The notes below the pieces were generated by a model. The model did no database searches. It had not been told where the DNA came from and saw only the letters and a list, made by a program, of their open reading frames with translations. Of a DNA stretch of 64,000 nucleotides, positions 26,695 to 37,930 are shown piece by piece (position 1 is the first letter of the stretch; every line of letters begins with the position of its first letter). A program made the translations under genes and the position numbers. Source of the DNA: Natrinema salifodinae (GTDB taxonomy: Archaea > Halobacteriota > Halobacteria > Halobacteriales > Natrialbaceae); contig NZ_FOIS01000001.1 in assembly GCF_900110455.1 (NCBI RefSeq), positions 124,001 through 188,000 on the forward strand, written 5' to 3'.

Positions 26695-29274
26695 CTACGA
26701 GATCGAAGCCGGCGGCCTGCGGTCGTCGCCGTCGTCGGCCAGTTCGGTTTCGAGCGCCGGTCGGACGGCCGCTGCGTCCGTCTCGCCGAGCAGCGCGTCG
26801 ATCACGTCCGTCGCCGCTGGCGCGTACAGCGGCCGGTTATCGTTCCCGCACCGATCGTCCATGAGACAGGCGGGACAGCCCTCGTCGCGCCCGCACTCGC
26901 AACCGGTCATCAGCTCCCGCGCCCGCTTGGCGACCGCCTCGTACTCCTCGTAGATGCGGCGAGAGAAGCCCAGCCCGCCGTCGACGCCGTCGTAGATGAA
27001 CCAGCCGCTGGTGTCCGGGGCGTCCGGCAATCGATTGGTCGCCAGGCCGCCCAGATCGGACGCGTCCACGGTCAGTTCCAGCGGCGCGACGGCGATCATC
27101 GCGTGTTCGATGGCGTGAATGCCCCCGAGGTACCCGTGAAGCCGCGGGGGGAGCTCCTCGCATTCGTCGTTGTGGTACTCGCTGTGAGCGGCCGTGACCG
27201 CGCGTTCGACGTCGTCGGGGACCTCGGCCCAGCAGAGCTGCGTCCGCATTTCCAGCGGCGGGACGCCGGTTTCGAGGCCGGTCTCGCGGACGTCGCCCGA
27301 GCCGAGTTCCCGCTTCATGAAGGTGTCGTAGCGAACGGTGACGGTGCCGTATCCCCAGTTGAGGCGGAACGGGCCGACCTCGCGCGACTCCCGGATTTCG
27401 GTGTCGTAGATCGTCGTCTGGCGTTGGGACTGAGTGTAGTAGTCGACGTCGGCCGGTTCCAGTTTCACGAAGGGCTGCGGGCGGTCCTCCCGCAGTTCGA
27501 CGACCTGGTACCGGTCGCCGCGGTAGAGCACTGTCGCGCCCTCGTGGTAGTCTCGGTACGCGCGTGCGCGGCCGATCGGCTGGTGATCGAACGAGTCGTC
27601 GCCCGCCAGGCGGACCTCGAAGGCGTTCCCGCCGGAGGCGTAGAGGCTGATCTCGTCTTGGGGGCGGTCGCGGTGGGCGTAGGTGACGCCGCCCGCGAGC
27701 GAGCCCTCGAGGTCGCCGGTCCGCCGGCCGTACTCGACGGCCCGCTCGAGGCGGTCGCGCCCGCCGAAGCGGTCGGCGTCCGCGCGGGTCAGCGGCAGTT
27801 CCTGGGCGGCACAGCGCAGGTGCTGGAGGTAGACCGGGTTGTTCTCGAGGTCGACGACCGCGCTCTCGGGTGCTTCCTCCAGGAGGTACTCGGGATGGCG
27901 GAGGATGTACTGATCGAGCGTCGCGTGACTGGGAACGAACACCGAGAGGGCGTTGCGCTCGTCGCGGCCCGAGCGGCCGATGCGCTGCCAGAACGACTGC
28001 CTGGAGCCGGGGTAGCCCAGGAGGACGGTGCCGTCGATCCCGCCGACGTCGATCCCGACTTCGAGCGCGCTGGTCGTCGCGACGCCGTCCAGATCGCCGG
28101 TCTTGAGTCGGTGCTCGGTGCCTCGCCGCGCTTTCTTGCCGTGGCCCGCGTTGTACGCGGCCAGGTCGGCGCGTCCCCGATAGGGAAACTTCGGGGTCTC
28201 GAGGAACTCCCGCGCCCGTCCGACGGCCAGTTCGGTCTGCTTCCGCGAGTCACAGAACAGCAACGAGGGGACGCCGTGATAGCAGCAGTGGGCCCAGACC
28301 TCGGGCGCCTCGACGGTCGCGGGTCGTTTGCTCGGGGTCCAGTCGGACCCGTCGCCCGCCGCGTCGCCTCCGCTCCCGTCCCCGCTTTCGGTTCCGTCTC
28401 CGTCGCCGCCGCTGCCCTCCTCGTCAGCCGGCGGATCCCAGAAGACCAGGTGGCGGCGACCGCTAGGCGAGCCGTCCGCGTCGATCACCATCGCGGGCTC
28501 GCCGGTCAGCGTGCGGGCGTGTTCGGCCGGATTCCCGATCGTCGCAGTCGTCAGCACGTACTGGGGATCGCCGCCGTACCAGCCGATTACGCGGCGAGCG
28601 CGCCGGAGGATCCAGGCGGCGTGCATCCCGCTGACGCCGGTCCAGGCGTGGGCCTCGTCGATCACGAGCAGCGAGCAGTTCGCGTGGAACTCGGCCCAGC
28701 GGTGGTGGCCCTCGAGGTACTGATTGAGTCCCGCGAAGTTCGTGATGACGACGGTAGCCTCCTCGCGGATTCGGACCTTCTCCTCGCGGTTCGTGTCGCC
28801 GTCGTAGACGCCGACGGTGACGTCGACGCCGAGGGCGTCGAAGAGGTCGTTGAGCTCTCGCTCCTGGTCGCGGCTGAGCGCCTTCGTCGGGTAGACCAGC
28901 AGCGCGCGCACGTCGGGATTCTCGCGAAATCGCCGCGCGATATCGAGTCCGTAGACGTAGGTCTTCCCGGAGGACGTCGACGTCGCGACGCAGACGTTCT
29001 CGCCGTCGGCCAACGCGTCGAGCGCCGCGGCCTGGTGGCTCCAGAGATCGACCCCCAGGTTCGCCGCGAGTCCGGCCGGAAGCGCCTCGCGGGCCGGGAC
29101 GTGCTCGGCCGGTTCGGCCGGCAGGACGAACTGCTCGCGGGCCTGGTGGGCGTAGCGAGCCGCGGGATAGGTCTCGCGGAGCCGGTCGGCGGTCAGGGCG
29201 AGGCCGTCCGGGCCGGTGCTGTGGCGGCGGTTCGTCGGTCGTTCGGCGTCGATATCGGTGTCGTCGGATGGCAT
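26695..29274 (-). CDS. DEAD/DEAH-box helicase with C-terminal four-cysteine DUF1998 domain (MrfA/YprA-like)
   Basis: An 859-residue superfamily 2 helicase. Walker A is ATSTSSGKT (near 97-105), motif II VIDEAHAW (near 205), motif VI region GRSGRDERNALS (near 435), and the C-terminal domain ends with cysteines in CECGRDEGCPACLMDDRCG near residue 800-820, the metal-binding set of the MrfA (YprA)/Hrq1 group. These act in DNA repair; in Bacillus MrfA works with exonuclease MrfB on mitomycin damage. The next gene upstream on this strand (29285-30859) encodes an RNase H-like nuclease, ten bases away. ATG 29274 is chosen over an open upstream extension. A glycine/serine-rich insert lies near residues 290-320. 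Confidence 0.87.
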   Translation of the reverse strand: MPSDDTDIDAERPTNRRHSTGPDGLALTADRLRETYPAARYAHQAREQFVLPAEPAEHVPAREALPAGLAANLGVDLWSHQAAALDALADGENVCVATSTSSGKTYVYGLDIARRFRENPDVRALLVYPTKALSRDQERELNDLFDALGVDVTVGVYDGDTNREEKVRIREEATVVITNFAGLNQYLEGHHRWAEFHANCSLLVIDEAHAWTGVSGMHAAWILRRARRVIGWYGGDPQYVLTTATIGNPAEHARTLTGEPAMVIDADGSPSGRRHLVFWDPPADEEGSGGDGDGTESGDGSGGDAAGDGSDWTPSKRPATVEAPEVWAHCCYHGVPSLLFCDSRKQTELAVGRAREFLETPKFPYRGRADLAAYNAGHGKKARRGTEHRLKTGDLDGVATTSALEVGIDVGGIDGTVLLGYPGSRQSFWQRIGRSGRDERNALSVFVPSHATLDQYILRHPEYLLEEAPESAVVDLENNPVYLQHLRCAAQELPLTRADADRFGGRDRLERAVEYGRRTGDLEGSLAGGVTYAHRDRPQDEISLYASGGNAFEVRLAGDDSFDHQPIGRARAYRDYHEGATVLYRGDRYQVVELREDRPQPFVKLEPADVDYYTQSQRQTTIYDTEIRESREVGPFRLNWGYGTVTVRYDTFMKRELGSGDVRETGLETGVPPLEMRTQLCWAEVPDDVERAVTAAHSEYHNDECEELPPRLHGYLGGIHAIEHAMIAVAPLELTVDASDLGGLATNRLPDAPDTSGWFIYDGVDGGLGFSRRIYEEYEAVAKRARELMTGCECGRDEGCPACLMDDRCGNDNRPLYAPAATDVIDALLGETDAAAVRPALETELADDGDDRRPPASIS

Positions 29275-29284
29275 CGGTAGCGAG

Positions 29285-30859
29285 TCAGAAGTCGGCGAGC
29301 CCGGTCTGGGTCGTCGAGTCGGCGGTCGATCCGTTCGTCGCTTCTTCCGCTCCGTCGTCCTCGTTCGGCTCGGGTTCGGCCGCCGCGATCGCGTCGAAAA
29401 CGGCGGCCAGTTCGCGGACGTCCGCCTCGCAGTACCGTCGGGCGGCGTCCCAGTCGATTCCCGCGTCCGCGTCGGATTCGGCGGCTCCGGCGGTCCCCGT
29501 GGGCTCGACGGCTCCAGCATCGTCGGCGGAGCCGACGGAAGAATCCTCGAGCAGCCGTCGGATCCGCTTCGCGAGGGACCTTCCGTCGAGCGCCGCCGCA
29601 GGGCCCGAACGGGCACAACCCAGGGCGGCGGCGACGGTTTCGAGGCGATTCGTTCGGCCCGGCAGGACGGCGTTGTCCCGCCGCACCGCCCAGTCGTAGG
29701 GGTCGTACGTCTGGACCCGATCGCGCCAGTACTCGCGGTACTCGGGCGCGTAGCGGACGACGAATCGATCGAGATGTTCGTAGTCGAACCCGTAACCGTT
29801 CCAGGCGATCAGCGACGGCCGCTCGTACTCGGCGGCCAGCCACGAGACGAATTCGCGGGTCGCGGCGCCTGGCTCGTCGCGGGACGGATCGGCATCGACG
29901 AAATCGACGTACGCGTCCCGTTCCGGGTCGTAGACGCCGATCAACCAGATGATCGTCGGCCGAAGTCCGTCGGTCTCGATATCGACGAACAGCGGTGTCG
30001 CCGTCTCGGCGGTCGGCGGGACCGGCTCGTCCGTCCGGCGGACGACGCGAGATTCGGCGAGCGCACGCGCGCTGTGGAGCAGCTCCCGGGCCGTGGCCGC
30101 GCCGATGCCCGCGATCTCGCGCAGGTCCGTTTCGGCCGCGTCGGCGACGGCCGCGCGCGTCTCGTACCCGTGTGTTCGGAGCCGATCCGCCGTCGTCGGA
30201 CCGACGCCGTCTAGCGCCTGCAGTCCGAACCGATCGGCCGGCGCCGACGAGACGGCCACGCCGCCGCCTCGATCGCAAGTGAGGCGGGCGAGTTCGACCG
30301 CGCCGGAACGTCGCAGCGGGGCGACACCACGCACCGGCAGCCGGACCCGGTCGCCGTCGACGGTCGCGTCCCAGACGTGATCGTAACTCGCCGGGAGCGC
30401 GCCGGAGAGGAACGTCGTCGAGCCGCCCGTCCGGCGCTGGTAGCGAGCGATCTCCCTGCGCCCCTCGAGCGTGGCCTCGAGCGCGACGGCGTCGGTCGTC
30501 GGCTCGAGATCGTCGCAGACGACGTAGTCGGCCCGGGCCGCGGGTTCGGGCGGCTCCTCGAGCAGTGACGCTGCGCTCGCGAAGGCGACGGTGACGTCCG
30601 CCACCGTCTCCGTCCGGACGTCGGCGGGGCCGCCGGCGAAGACGACCGGGCCGTCGAACGCACGCCGGAGGCGACTCACGATCCGGACGTCCGAGGCCTC
30701 GCGAACGACGTAGACGAGGTCCGGGTCGAAGTACTCGAGGGCGTCGCGCAGCGCCGCGTCCGCCAGATCGGCGACGGCGTCACAGCGTAACGCCAGCAGG
30801 TCTCCCCCCGTTTCGGTTTCGGACCCGGCTCCGGGTTCGGTTCCAGTCCCGGCGGTCAT
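29285..30859 (-). CDS. HhH plus RNase H-like exonuclease (MrfB/YprB-like)
   Basis: 524 residues in three parts: an N-terminal region of unknown fold (1-220), two helix-hairpin-helix motifs (DGVGPTTADRLRTHG and AGIGAATARELLHSA, near 235-285), and a C-terminal DEDD exonuclease (about 300-500) with FVDIETDGL, LIAWNGYGFDYEHLDR and a Tyr/Asp block RYCEADVRELAAVF. The nuclease is the YprB/MrfB type, and the adjacent helicase is MrfA-like, so they should act together on damaged DNA. The HhH insertion would add structure-specific DNA binding. It is transcribed before the helicase. ATG 30859 is preferred; upstream residues are not conserved in character. Confidence 0.82.
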   Translation of the reverse strand: MTAGTGTEPGAGSETETGGDLLALRCDAVADLADAALRDALEYFDPDLVYVVREASDVRIVSRLRRAFDGPVVFAGGPADVRTETVADVTVAFASAASLLEEPPEPAARADYVVCDDLEPTTDAVALEATLEGRREIARYQRRTGGSTTFLSGALPASYDHVWDATVDGDRVRLPVRGVAPLRRSGAVELARLTCDRGGGVAVSSAPADRFGLQALDGVGPTTADRLRTHGYETRAAVADAAETDLREIAGIGAATARELLHSARALAESRVVRRTDEPVPPTAETATPLFVDIETDGLRPTIIWLIGVYDPERDAYVDFVDADPSRDEPGAATREFVSWLAAEYERPSLIAWNGYGFDYEHLDRFVVRYAPEYREYWRDRVQTYDPYDWAVRRDNAVLPGRTNRLETVAAALGCARSGPAAALDGRSLAKRIRRLLEDSSVGSADDAGAVEPTGTAGAAESDADAGIDWDAARRYCEADVRELAAVFDAIAAAEPEPNEDDGAEEATNGSTADSTTQTGLADF

Positions 30860-30970: not shown

Positions 30971-31321
30971 TCAGGCCGTCTCGGCCGCGTTCGGCACGTG
31001 CTCTTCGAGGAAATCCGTGACCGCGTCTCCGCCCTGGAACCCCTCGGCTAGGCGCGCCGTCTCGGTGCCGTCCTCGAACAGGATCAGCGTCGGCACCGAC
31101 CGGATGTCGAACCGGTCGACCAGATCGATGTCGTTGCCGGGGTTGATCATCCCGATCGCGACGTCGGTCGCGCGGGCGACGTTGCCGAGCACCGGCTCCA
31201 TCGCCTGGCACAGCGCACAGCCGCTGGTGTAGAACTCCACGAGCGCCACGTCGTTGGTTTCGACGAAGTCGTCGAGCTCGTTGCCGGTGTCGAATCGGCT
31301 CGGTTTGCTGGCGGTGGCCAT
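30971..31321 (-). CDS. Thioredoxin-family protein
   Basis: 116 residues with a thioredoxin fold: VALVEFYTSGCALCQAMEP places the redox Cys pair at 35 and 38 as CALC instead of CGPC, and the cis-proline is in SVPTLILFEDG. The first 15 residues are a flexible extension. It is cytoplasmic by prediction. It lies 111 bp upstream of the nuclease-helicase pair on the same strand and may be co-transcribed, though a functional link is not evident. Confidence 0.85.
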   Translation of the reverse strand: MATASKPSRFDTGNELDDFVETNDVALVEFYTSGCALCQAMEPVLGNVARATDVAIGMINPGNDIDLVDRFDIRSVPTLILFEDGTETARLAEGFQGGDAVTDFLEEHVPNAAETA

Positions 31322-35183: not shown

Positions 35184-36059
35184 TCAGACCGACTCGTACG
35201 GCCCGAGCCGCGTCCCGTCGAGCAGGTACGCCTCGCCGTCGGCCAGGCCGGCCGGCAGGAACGGCGAGAGAAACGACTGGCCGGGGACGTTGATCCACGT
35301 CCCGCCGACGAGATCGTTGAACGCGGGCAAGACGACCGCTCGCGGCGGCGGTTCGTCGCCGTCGACCCACGAAACGCCGTCGTACTCCGGCCGCTCGCGG
35401 AACGGTTCGGGAGCGAGCCGTCCGCGCAGCCAGGCGCGCTCGACGCGGCTGCCGCCGACCTCGTCTTCGAGCCGGACGCAGGGGTGTTCGTGACCCAGAC
35501 AGACCACGTCGGACTCGAGGACGGCCGGCGCGGGCCAGGTGTGGCCGTGACAGACGCCGACGGCGCCGAGCGCGACGCCGTCGCCGGGGACGACGTCGAC
35601 GGCGGGGGTCTCCTCGTCCGCGGCGAGCCAGGTCCCGATCTGCCCGTCGTGGTTGCCCTTGACGACGGTCACGTCGAAATCGGCCGGAAAAGACTCGAAC
35701 AACACTTCGAGTTCGCCGCGTTCGGCCCCGCCGGGGTCGCCGATCGAGTGCATGAGGTCGCCGAGGACGACCAGGCGATCCGGACGAGTGCGATCGAGCA
35801 GCGCCTGGAGTCGCTCGCGGCGGTCGGGCGCCCGGCTGGGGACGTCGACGCCGCGCTCGTATCGCAGTCCCGCCTCGTAGCCGGCGTGGTAGTCGGCGAC
35901 GAGCAGCGCGCGTTGGGTCCCGTCCCCGTCACCGGTCCCGTCCCCGATCGTCGCGGTCGCGGCGGGCGCGCCCGGAACGGGCTCGACGAGCGGGGCGGTC
36001 GAGGAGGCGGGTGCGGACGCGGATCCTGGCTCGGCCGGACCGTCGTCGGGGGTATCCAT
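35184..36059 (-). CDS. rpe: RPA-operon metallophosphoesterase
   Basis: A 291-residue calcineurin-like phosphoesterase: VADYHAGYEAG (metal ligands D, H), VVLGDLMHSIGD, VVKGNHDGQIG, and VCHGHTWPAP/CLGHEHPCVR carry the metal-binding Asp, His and Asn residues. In Haloferax an uncharacterised phosphoesterase is co-transcribed with rpa1 and rpap1, and this gene follows rpap1 by eight bases, so it is its counterpart. It may act on DNA ends or nucleotides; biochemical role not known. The first 40 residues are a low-complexity extension. ATG 36059 chosen. Confidence 0.85.
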   Translation of the reverse strand: MDTPDDGPAEPGSASAPASSTAPLVEPVPGAPAATATIGDGTGDGDGTQRALLVADYHAGYEAGLRYERGVDVPSRAPDRRERLQALLDRTRPDRLVVLGDLMHSIGDPGGAERGELEVLFESFPADFDVTVVKGNHDGQIGTWLAADEETPAVDVVPGDGVALGAVGVCHGHTWPAPAVLESDVVCLGHEHPCVRLEDEVGGSRVERAWLRGRLAPEPFRERPEYDGVSWVDGDEPPPRAVVLPAFNDLVGGTWINVPGQSFLSPFLPAGLADGEAYLLDGTRLGPYESV

Positions 36060-36067
36060 GGGCCGGT

Positions 36068-37930
36068 TCAGATCGCCTTCAGCGTCTCGTCGTCGGGCTC
36101 GTAACACTGCCCGCCCATCAGCGCGTCCTGGATAGCGTCTTCGACCGCGGCCTCGGCGGCCCCCGTATCCGCGGCGACCGTCTCGACGAGTTCCGTCCGG
36201 TCGGCGCCGTCGCCGTCGTCGAGTTCCTCCATAGTTTCGACGACGTACGCTTCGAGGTCGACGTCGTCGGCCGGTTCGTCCTCGACAGCGGAGTCGTCGG
36301 CGTCGTCGGTCGCTGGCTCGGACTCGTCGTCGGTCGGCTCCGGTTCAGCGGCGTCCGCAGTTTCGGCCGCCGCTTCGCTCTCGTCGACCGGTTCGGATTC
36401 GAGTCCGGACGCGGGCGGTTCACCAGGGTCGTCGTCCGCCGGCTCCGCCGACTCCGCCGACTCGTCCGGTTCGGGCACGTCGATGTCGGCCTCGCCTGGT
36501 TCGTCGACTTCGGATCCGGTGGTGAACTCGGCACCGAACTCCGCTTCGATCTGCTCGCGCTCCTCCTCGTCCATCTCGTACATACCGTCGTCGACGCTGC
36601 CGGCGTCGAAGTCGCCGAGTTCGCCGTCCTTGTCGGCGGCAGGTTCAGGCTCGTCGGATTCGTCGACGGCAGCGGGTTCGGGCTCAGCGGATTCCGCTTC
36701 GTCGGCAGCCGGTGCATCGTTCTCGGCCGCGAGCGGTTCGTCGTCGGTATCGGTCGCTGCCGATTCGGGTTCGGGCTCGGACTCGGGCTCAGGCCCGGAT
36801 TCGACATCGTCGCCCGCCGTCTCATCGACGGCGGTCTCCGTGTCGGTGTCGGTATCGGATTCGGCCTGGTCGGTCGATGCCGCTGCCGCCGTGGCGTCCG
36901 CCTCGGCGTCGGCGGCCCCGGAATCGGACTCGGTGCCCGTCCCCGCGCCCGCGGTCGCGGCGGCCGGTTCGGCGTCGACCTCGGCGGCGTCGGGTTCGTC
37001 GCTCGTCGCCGACGTCGCCGTGCCGGCCGCGGAGCCGGAGTGCGCTTCCGGCTCGTCGGCGTCGGTTGCCGCGCCGCCGGTCGTCGCCGCTATCGGCTCC
37101 GCCGGTTCAGTCTCTGTGTCGGCCGCGGCGTCGGGGTCGGTCGCGACGCCGCCCTCGAGCGCATCGGGATCGATCCCGTCGAGCTCGGCCAGCGCGTCGA
37201 ACGTCGTCTCGTACTCGGGGCTGGTGTCGTCGGGCGCGAGATCGAGACCGCTCACCTGGTCGCGCTCGCCGGCGACGACCTCGACAGCCTCGAGCGCGCA
37301 GTCCCGCAGCGCCGCCAGGTACGACGGCGTCGTGCCGTAGTGGTCCTGAGCGAGCGGGAGTCCCGCCGCCAGGCCGGATTCGACGTCGGCCTCGAGCAAG
37401 GCGTCGGTCAGGGCCTCGCCGCCGGCGTCCAGATCGGCCGCCGCGGAGTACGCGGCGATCCGTTCGATCGTTTGTTCGGCCGCGCTGACGACCCAGCGGT
37501 CACGGGTGTCGGCGTCGACCGTCGCGAGGCTCTCGGGTCGGAGCGAGGTGTAGACCCGATCGCCGTCCTCGGGCTGGAAGGTGCGGGCCTTGCCGGTCAC
37601 CGCGACGAACGCCGGCGGGTCGATCTGCTCTAAGAAGGCCAGCTCGTCGGGCTGGTACTGGCCGGCGTAGACGACGAACGCGCCGGTCGGATCGACGACG
37701 CGTGCGCGAACCATCTCGTCGTTGACCGGCGAGACCTCGGTCAGCGTGCCGACGGCGAAGACGCGGTTGAGCCGCGCGCCGGTCGGCGAGATCACGTAGT
37801 TCGGGGCCCGCTCCTCGTCGCTCTCGGCGTAGGAGAGCGAGGCGTCGTCGTACTCGGCGGCGAACAGGCGGTAGGCGATCTCCCGTCCGGGAATCTCGTC
37901 GTCGCCGTCGCCGTTTCCGTTCGCGCTCAT
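36068..37930 (-). CDS. rpap1: RPA-associated protein with a long acidic linker
   Basis: 620 residues. The N-terminal 1-240 contain an OB-fold (VFAVGTLTEVSPVNDEMVRARVVDPTG) and a helical region; residues about 245-555 are almost pure Asp/Glu/Ala/Ser/Pro; the C-terminal 60 (DLEAYVVETMEELDD... AVEDAIQDALMGG) form a small winged helix like that of RPA32. This is the COG3390-type partner of archaeal RPA. It overlaps rpa1 by four bases (ATGA) and precedes the phosphoesterase. The linker is the longest disordered stretch in the window and contains local direct repeats. Confidence 0.87.
   Translation of the reverse strand: MSANGNGDGDDEIPGREIAYRLFAAEYDDASLSYAESDEERAPNYVISPTGARLNRVFAVGTLTEVSPVNDEMVRARVVDPTGAFVVYAGQYQPDELAFLEQIDPPAFVAVTGKARTFQPEDGDRVYTSLRPESLATVDADTRDRWVVSAAEQTIERIAAYSAAADLDAGGEALTDALLEADVESGLAAGLPLAQDHYGTTPSYLAALRDCALEAVEVVAGERDQVSGLDLAPDDTSPEYETTFDALAELDGIDPDALEGGVATDPDAAADTETEPAEPIAATTGGAATDADEPEAHSGSAAGTATSATSDEPDAAEVDAEPAAATAGAGTGTESDSGAADAEADATAAAASTDQAESDTDTDTETAVDETAGDDVESGPEPESEPEPESAATDTDDEPLAAENDAPAADEAESAEPEPAAVDESDEPEPAADKDGELGDFDAGSVDDGMYEMDEEEREQIEAEFGAEFTTGSEVDEPGEADIDVPEPDESAESAEPADDDPGEPPASGLESEPVDESEAAAETADAAEPEPTDDESEPATDDADDSAVEDEPADDVDLEAYVVETMEELDDGDGADRTELVETVAADTGAAEAAVEDAIQDALMGGQCYEPDDETLKAI

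Follow-up and report, generated by a model that had tools for sequence, protein, structure and literature searches.

A conserved haloarchaeal helicase–nuclease gene pair of the MrfAB kind with a putative PCNA-binding tail

Introduction

In Bacillus, mitomycin adducts are processed jointly by the MrfAB helicase and exonuclease (PMC11194089). The 64,000-nucleotide stretch of Natrinema salifodinae DNA analyzed here (the window) carries an SF2 helicase gene beside a DEDD exonuclease gene. The locus raises the question of whether these genes form a repair module of the same kind, and what the additional parts of the nuclease contribute to it.

Results

Gene layout

Both genes lie on the minus strand, with the nuclease gene upstream of the helicase gene.

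29285-30859, minus: nuclease gene, 524 aa; MPE (metallophosphoesterase)-like N-terminal domain, HhH, predicted DEDDy exonuclease and PIP tail
30230-30811, minus: nuclease N-terminal domain, residues 17-210, from the AF2 model and Foldseek/VIA matches
30056-30244, minus: nuclease HhH domain, residues 206-268, Pfam HHH_5 E 9e-11, RadA/Rad51-N-terminal-like
29390-29992, minus: DEDDy 3'-5' exonuclease domain, residues 290-490, from Pfam RNase_H_2 and residue conservation
29288-29308, minus: nuclease C-terminal PIP motif QTGLADF, residues 518-524, from homologue conservation and background scans
29275-29284, minus: intergenic spacer, 10 nt, from nuclease stop to helicase ATG
26695-29274, minus: helicase gene, MrfA/YprA-type SF2, 859 aa
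27961-29040, minus: SF2 helicase core, residues 79-438, GKT at 103 and DEAH at 206
26848-27111, minus: helicase MZB Zn-binding domain and cysteine tail, residues 722-809, PF09369 E 1.6e-18

The ten-base spacing given in the initial annotation was confirmed. The start codon of the nuclease is uncertain, as most homologues start near residue 13-17 of the 524-aa reading. The genome encodes one MZB protein and two RNase_H_2 proteins. Upstream of the nuclease, 111 bp away and on its strand, lies a thioredoxin-like gene (30971-31321, minus); genes of its cluster occur at 16 of 109 loci, so it probably reflects local synteny and is not part of the module.

Pairing and distribution

A lack of co-occurrence across archaea would have refuted the initial annotation; in the genomes sampled, the two genes do occur together. 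In a survey of 292 Halobacteria genomes, with the tally taken from hand-copied coordinates, 118 full nuclease matches were obtained from 110 genomes, eight of which carried two copies. At each of the 118 matches a helicase similar to that of the window adjoined the nuclease. The pair is thus present in about 38% of the sampled haloarchaeal genomes and absent from about 62%. Outside haloarchaea, in other classes of the same phylum, a nuclease lies directly before a YprA-type helicase in 19 of the 20 loci examined.

The neighborhood survey proposed earlier was run on 109 loci (100 fetched from the genome survey, the window and eight loci from named genomes). This set repeats some species, and 105 of its 108 complete nuclease sequences are distinct. 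In all 109 loci the nuclease comes first and the helicase follows on the same strand, with a gap above 200 nt in five. The nuclease and helicase distance matrices correlate with r = 0.967, compared with 0.09 for the best of 500 permutations. Pairing and co-divergence are computed results, and the two proteins very probably act jointly. No further gene is widely conserved beside the pair, the best genuine neighbor family reaching 21 of 109 loci. The pair is genuine and conserved, and represents a haloarchaeal variant of the MrfAB type.

The nuclease also occurs on 36 plasmid records. In Halobacterium salinarum R1 the pair is located on pHS3, with OE_RS12870 as the nuclease and OE_RS12865 as the helicase. 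On a Natronobeatus plasmid (L122:3947-5613, plus) it is split into two ORFs and apparently broken, with the helicase intact. In an IMG/VR scan for viral relatives, all matches either were short and centred on the DxE motif or covered part of the exonuclease domain.

The helicase

Pfam detected DEAD, Helicase_C, HRQ1 winged helix and MZB (MrfA Zn-binding) domains. The closest solved structure is B. subtilis YprA/MrfA (6znp, E 2e-105), so the earlier MrfA/YprA-type assignment stands. The "four-cysteine tail" attached to it has to be amended: C792, C794, C800, C803 and C809 make five, all invariant in 109 sequences. Loss of this tail in one helicase subgroup had been suspected from alignments ending at about residue 749 and was rejected on the same invariance.

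In a FastTree tree all 109 paired helicases group together, in a clade whose local support is modest (0.61); a "YprA-only" clade that is widespread in haloarchaea stands separate from it. The helicase has no PIP-type terminal motif. Many helicases of the paired clade end in a short conserved tail, RRPPLFY or RRPPAS(I/V)S. One helicase of the YprA-only type (L210:1547-4609, plus; 1020 aa) carries a C-terminal HhH (HHH_5 E 1e-9), here fused to the helicase and not to a nuclease.

The exonuclease site and the HhH domain

Pfam matched HHH_5, HHH and RNase_H_2 in the nuclease. The catalytic set is complete, in agreement with the DEDD assignment made earlier: D293, E295, D359 and D480 are retained in 99-100% of homologues, as are L299 (corresponding to the MrfB wedge L113) and F358 (MrfB F171). 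The spacing of D293, E295, L299 and F358-D359 matches that of MrfB D107, E109, L113, F171 and D172. The fifth catalytic residue is Tyr476 in all 108 homologues with a residue at that position. With the DEDD residues retained and a tyrosine at 476, the protein is predicted from sequence to be an active DEDDy 3'-5' exonuclease.

By model comparison, the HhH domain is of the RadA/Rad51 N-terminal type (VIA Z 12.5 to RadA 3ntu, 60 residues at 1.5 Å). The initial annotation regarded the HhH motifs as newly gained by the nuclease, which does not hold. In the paired nucleases of other classes, an HhH-like stretch with weak matches to Pfam HHH_5 and to the polymerase-lambda HhH precedes the exonuclease domain. 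An HhH-like start is also seen, by eye, in a stand-alone 250-aa paralogue of the window genome (C2; L001:1249-2001, plus), which has a DEDD exonuclease domain reading YNRAD and no PIP tail. Every haloarchaeal genome in the sample of the phylum encoded strong RNase_H_2 proteins, mostly of 250-290 aa.

The paired nucleases of other classes are 314-420 aa long, have a short N-terminus, carry HNxxD (DEDDh) and have no PIP motif at the end. One of them, searched against solved structures, matched MrfB (8un9) at E 2e-22, whereas the window nuclease did not match MrfB at E up to 1. The link between the window nuclease and MrfB therefore runs via these shorter nucleases. Since they already contain the HhH-like segment, both the operon and this element appear older than the haloarchaeal form. 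Specific to haloarchaea are the long N-terminal domain, the tyrosine in place of histidine and the PIP tail.

The N-terminal domain

The initial annotation described an unidentified N-terminal domain of about 220 residues. Such a domain is indeed present (about 210 residues) and absent from MrfB, and the structure prediction suggested for it has now been run and points to a fold class. The full-length AF2 model, built on a 9-sequence alignment, has a mean pLDDT of 69.8 and is confident over most of residues 21-270, with N-terminal blocks mostly at pLDDT 70-92. Among PDB entries, Foldseek ranks the COG0622 phosphoesterase 3ck2 first (E 1.9e-4, prob 0.99); TT1561 and the archaeal phosphodiesterase 1s3l also rank high, and weaker matches include B-subunit entries of DNA polymerase alpha and delta. 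VIA gave Z 10.4 to Rv0805 (173 residues at 4.0 Å), 9.4 to TT1561 and aq_1956, and 8.8 to SbcD. Modelled alone, the domain was less confident (pLDDT 63); its matches were almost all phosphoesterases, with a best Z of 8.7. At the sequence level, profile searches and hhalign gave nothing above controls for this fold; the hhalign comparison is a weak one, as it used a small set of haloarchaeal MPE-type sequences (7 of 30 loci and one window gene). On the strength of the model, an MPE-like fold is likely.

Among 109 sequences, none of the metal-ligand motifs DxH, GD, GNH(D/E) and GHxH is conserved in this domain. The most conserved residues are D39, L127, L131, Y159, W163, G178 and G199. Because the metal ligands are absent, the model suggests a probable catalytically dead phosphoesterase-like domain. 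The matches to SbcD (Z 8.8) and Mre11 would allow an active phosphoesterase or nuclease of that type, giving the protein a second catalytic activity. Yet where ligands would be expected, the 109 sequences conserve neither Asp nor His nor Asn, and the well conserved acidic residues D39 and D47 lie away from these positions in the model, so an active domain is very improbable. A separate metallophosphoesterase of the window (35184-36107, minus) is ordinary; its metal motifs look intact by eye, and it has no obvious sequence kinship to the nuclease N-terminus.

The PIP tail

The main new element of this locus is a conserved, putative PCNA-binding tail, which the initial annotation missed. The nuclease ends in TTQTGLADF, which fits the H. 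volcanii PIP consensus QxxLxxFx (PMC7776575). A terminal Q..[ILMV]..[FWY] was found in 105 of 109 nuclease homologues; three more end in Q..L.D.Y, and the last is the broken gene. With a slightly stricter pattern, a similar end was found in one of 2268 other ORFs of at least 150 aa from the same loci; this background is a composition control and not a census, since many of these ORFs are not genes. A codon scan of the whole genome (4.27 Mb) for Q..L.DF followed by a stop gave two sites, the nuclease and a Hel308-type helicase, and the reversed-pattern control gave none. FEN1 of this genome ends in VTQTGLDRWT and shares the QTGL core with the nuclease. Residues 497-524 have pLDDT below 50 and are probably flexible. 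The motif and its conservation are computed results; binding of the nuclease to the sliding clamp PCNA is, judged from this motif, very likely. The literature searched, which omits most subscription journals, contained no description of an archaeal MrfAB with a PIP motif, of this tail or of the N-terminal domain.

The same motif bears on another function, in which a PCNA-bound helicase–exonuclease would trim flaps or 3' ends where forks have stalled, comparable to Hef-HAN or Hel308, and would not excise lesions. The tail is of the kind found in FEN1 and the Hel308-type helicase of the same genome, and the PCNA partners in Thermococcus include Hef and the RecJ-like nuclease HAN (PMC7776575). 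However, about 62% of the sampled haloarchaeal genomes lack the pair, and in Bacillus the MrfA relative has a part in mitomycin repair (PMC11194089). We consider this function unlikely.

Plasmid cassettes and a possible defence role

On several plasmids (Halorussus, Haloprofundus and others) the pair is preceded by a cassette of a PLD-domain protein, two small ORFs, a JAB-ThiF (E1) protein and a second YprA helicase. It was seen at loci L037, L038, L035 and L219, with shorter forms at L040, L041 and L222. The cassette proteins are mostly more than 92% identical between plasmids of different haloarchaeal families, and the second YprA falls in the YprA-only clade. The cassette is a candidate defence island. 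In Natronosalvus the genes for a PLD protein and a YprA flank the pair on one side, and those for a DNA repair exonuclease and an SMC ATPase on the other. At L222:14786-19557, genes for a DNA repair exonuclease and an SMC-family ATPase are found just downstream of the plasmid-borne pair.

Such cassettes directly upstream, the 36 plasmid records and the patchy occurrence (110 of 292 genomes, eight with two copies) fit a module for defence or plasmid competition, in which the helicase would load on invading or aberrant DNA, the nuclease would degrade it and PCNA would find replicating mobile DNA. The YprA family is also central to DISARM, Dpd, Druantia, ARMADA and BRIGADE (PMC12458937). Several results argue against this function. 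The window and most loci conserve only the two genes, PADLOC gave no match for the nuclease, and in the Pfam scan the helicase lacked a C-terminal nuclease fusion of the kind reported for ARMADA, TALON and Druantia. Moreover, Bell et al. assign the YprA helicases that accompany MrfB to the repair branch, and the haloarchaeal defence systems that they list differ in composition from the pair (PMC12458937). PADLOC matches of the helicase were generic SF2 matches and were set aside. Overall, we regard a defence role as rather unlikely. A dual role, in which a clamp-directed MrfAB-like pair would serve chromosomal repair and would attack foreign replicons where it sits in a plasmid-borne defence cassette, appears quite unlikely.

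Discussion

Our preferred reading is a PCNA-coupled, MrfAB-like DNA excision-repair module of two proteins, to which we give a probability of roughly 0.55. Strict pairing, co-divergence, the lack of any other widely conserved neighbor, intact helicase motifs closest to MrfA, the DEDD set and the conservation of the PIP motif count in its favor, as does NreA, an example of PIP-dependent mitomycin repair in haloarchaea (PMC4929162). Against it count the patchy presence (about 38% of sampled genomes) and the many plasmid copies, both unusual for core repair, as well as the PLD, JAB/E1 and YprA genes adjoining some of these copies and the failure of the direct structure search with the nuclease to reach MrfB. 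By analogy with Bacillus, lesion excision is somewhat favored as the main job of the pair.

Because the proteins are homologous to MrfAB, we infer opening of DNA by the helicase and strand removal by the exonuclease; the lesion type is likewise a matter of interpretation. In such a module the MrfA-type helicase would translocate 3'-5' and open the DNA around the lesion. The PIP motif would hold the nuclease on PCNA and the HhH would hold it on DNA, and the nuclease would digest the opened strand 3'-5' with its two-metal DEDDy site. PCNA may pass the gap on to polymerase and ligase. The phosphoesterase-like N-terminal domain would most likely be a structural or protein-docking platform, comparable with the B-subunits, also inactive, of the replicative polymerases of eukaryotes.

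The route by which Bacillus MrfA and MrfB reach lesions is unsettled, and a clamp-tethered haloarchaeal pair, if true, would offer a direct recruitment mechanism. It would also add an excision module to the PCNA network alongside FEN1, Hel308 and NreA. The nuclease core itself is shown here with a tyrosine instead of the histidine base and with a dead-looking phosphoesterase domain, as in the polymerase B-subunits.

Comparison with known systems

Like B. subtilis MrfA/MrfB, the pair consists of an adjacent SF2 helicase with an MZB cysteine domain and a DEDD 3'-5' exonuclease, and the nuclease shares the wedge Leu and the Phe-Asp motif with MrfB. The gene order is reversed compared with Bacillus mrfAB, the haloarchaeal nuclease gene coming first. 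MrfB is DEDDh, with H258 as the base and an HNxxD motif, whereas the haloarchaeal enzyme is DEDDy with Tyr476. The C-terminal TPR of MrfB is absent (no Pfam match, and only about 30 low-confidence residues after the exonuclease domain). In contrast to MrfB, the haloarchaeal nuclease has the MPE-like N-terminal domain, the HhH and the C-terminal PIP motif. As the His base and the TPR are missing, we do not file it as MrfB, although the MrfA/MrfB-like operon of the initial annotation is supported. The best reading is a pair that resembles MrfAB in anatomy and forms a distinct haloarchaeal variant.

The short paired genes of other classes share the nuclease-then-helicase order, the HhH-like segment and the YprA-type helicase, and differ in nuclease length, DEDDh base, short N-terminus and missing PIP tail, as described above.

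In the TM0106 family (TIGR03491), RNase_H_2 likewise comes after an HhH and the register agrees (213-418 compared with 214-416 of the family model), but the nuclease scores 38 bits against a curated cut-off of 97.45. The N-terminus of that family is RecB/Cas4-like, whereas that of the nuclease is phosphoesterase-like in the model. A RecB/Cas4-like N-terminus, suggested by the TIGR03491 register, was dropped for the nuclease because its model matches phosphoesterases.

ARMADA, BRIGADE, DISARM and Dpd likewise contain a YprA-family helicase, but their methyltransferase, BrxHII-like helicase and deazaguanine genes are not conserved around the pair (109 loci).

NreA of Haloferax volcanii is an unrelated protein that works with UvrABC. 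Like the nuclease it carries a C-terminal PIP motif, and its role in mitomycin C repair requires that motif (PMC4929162).
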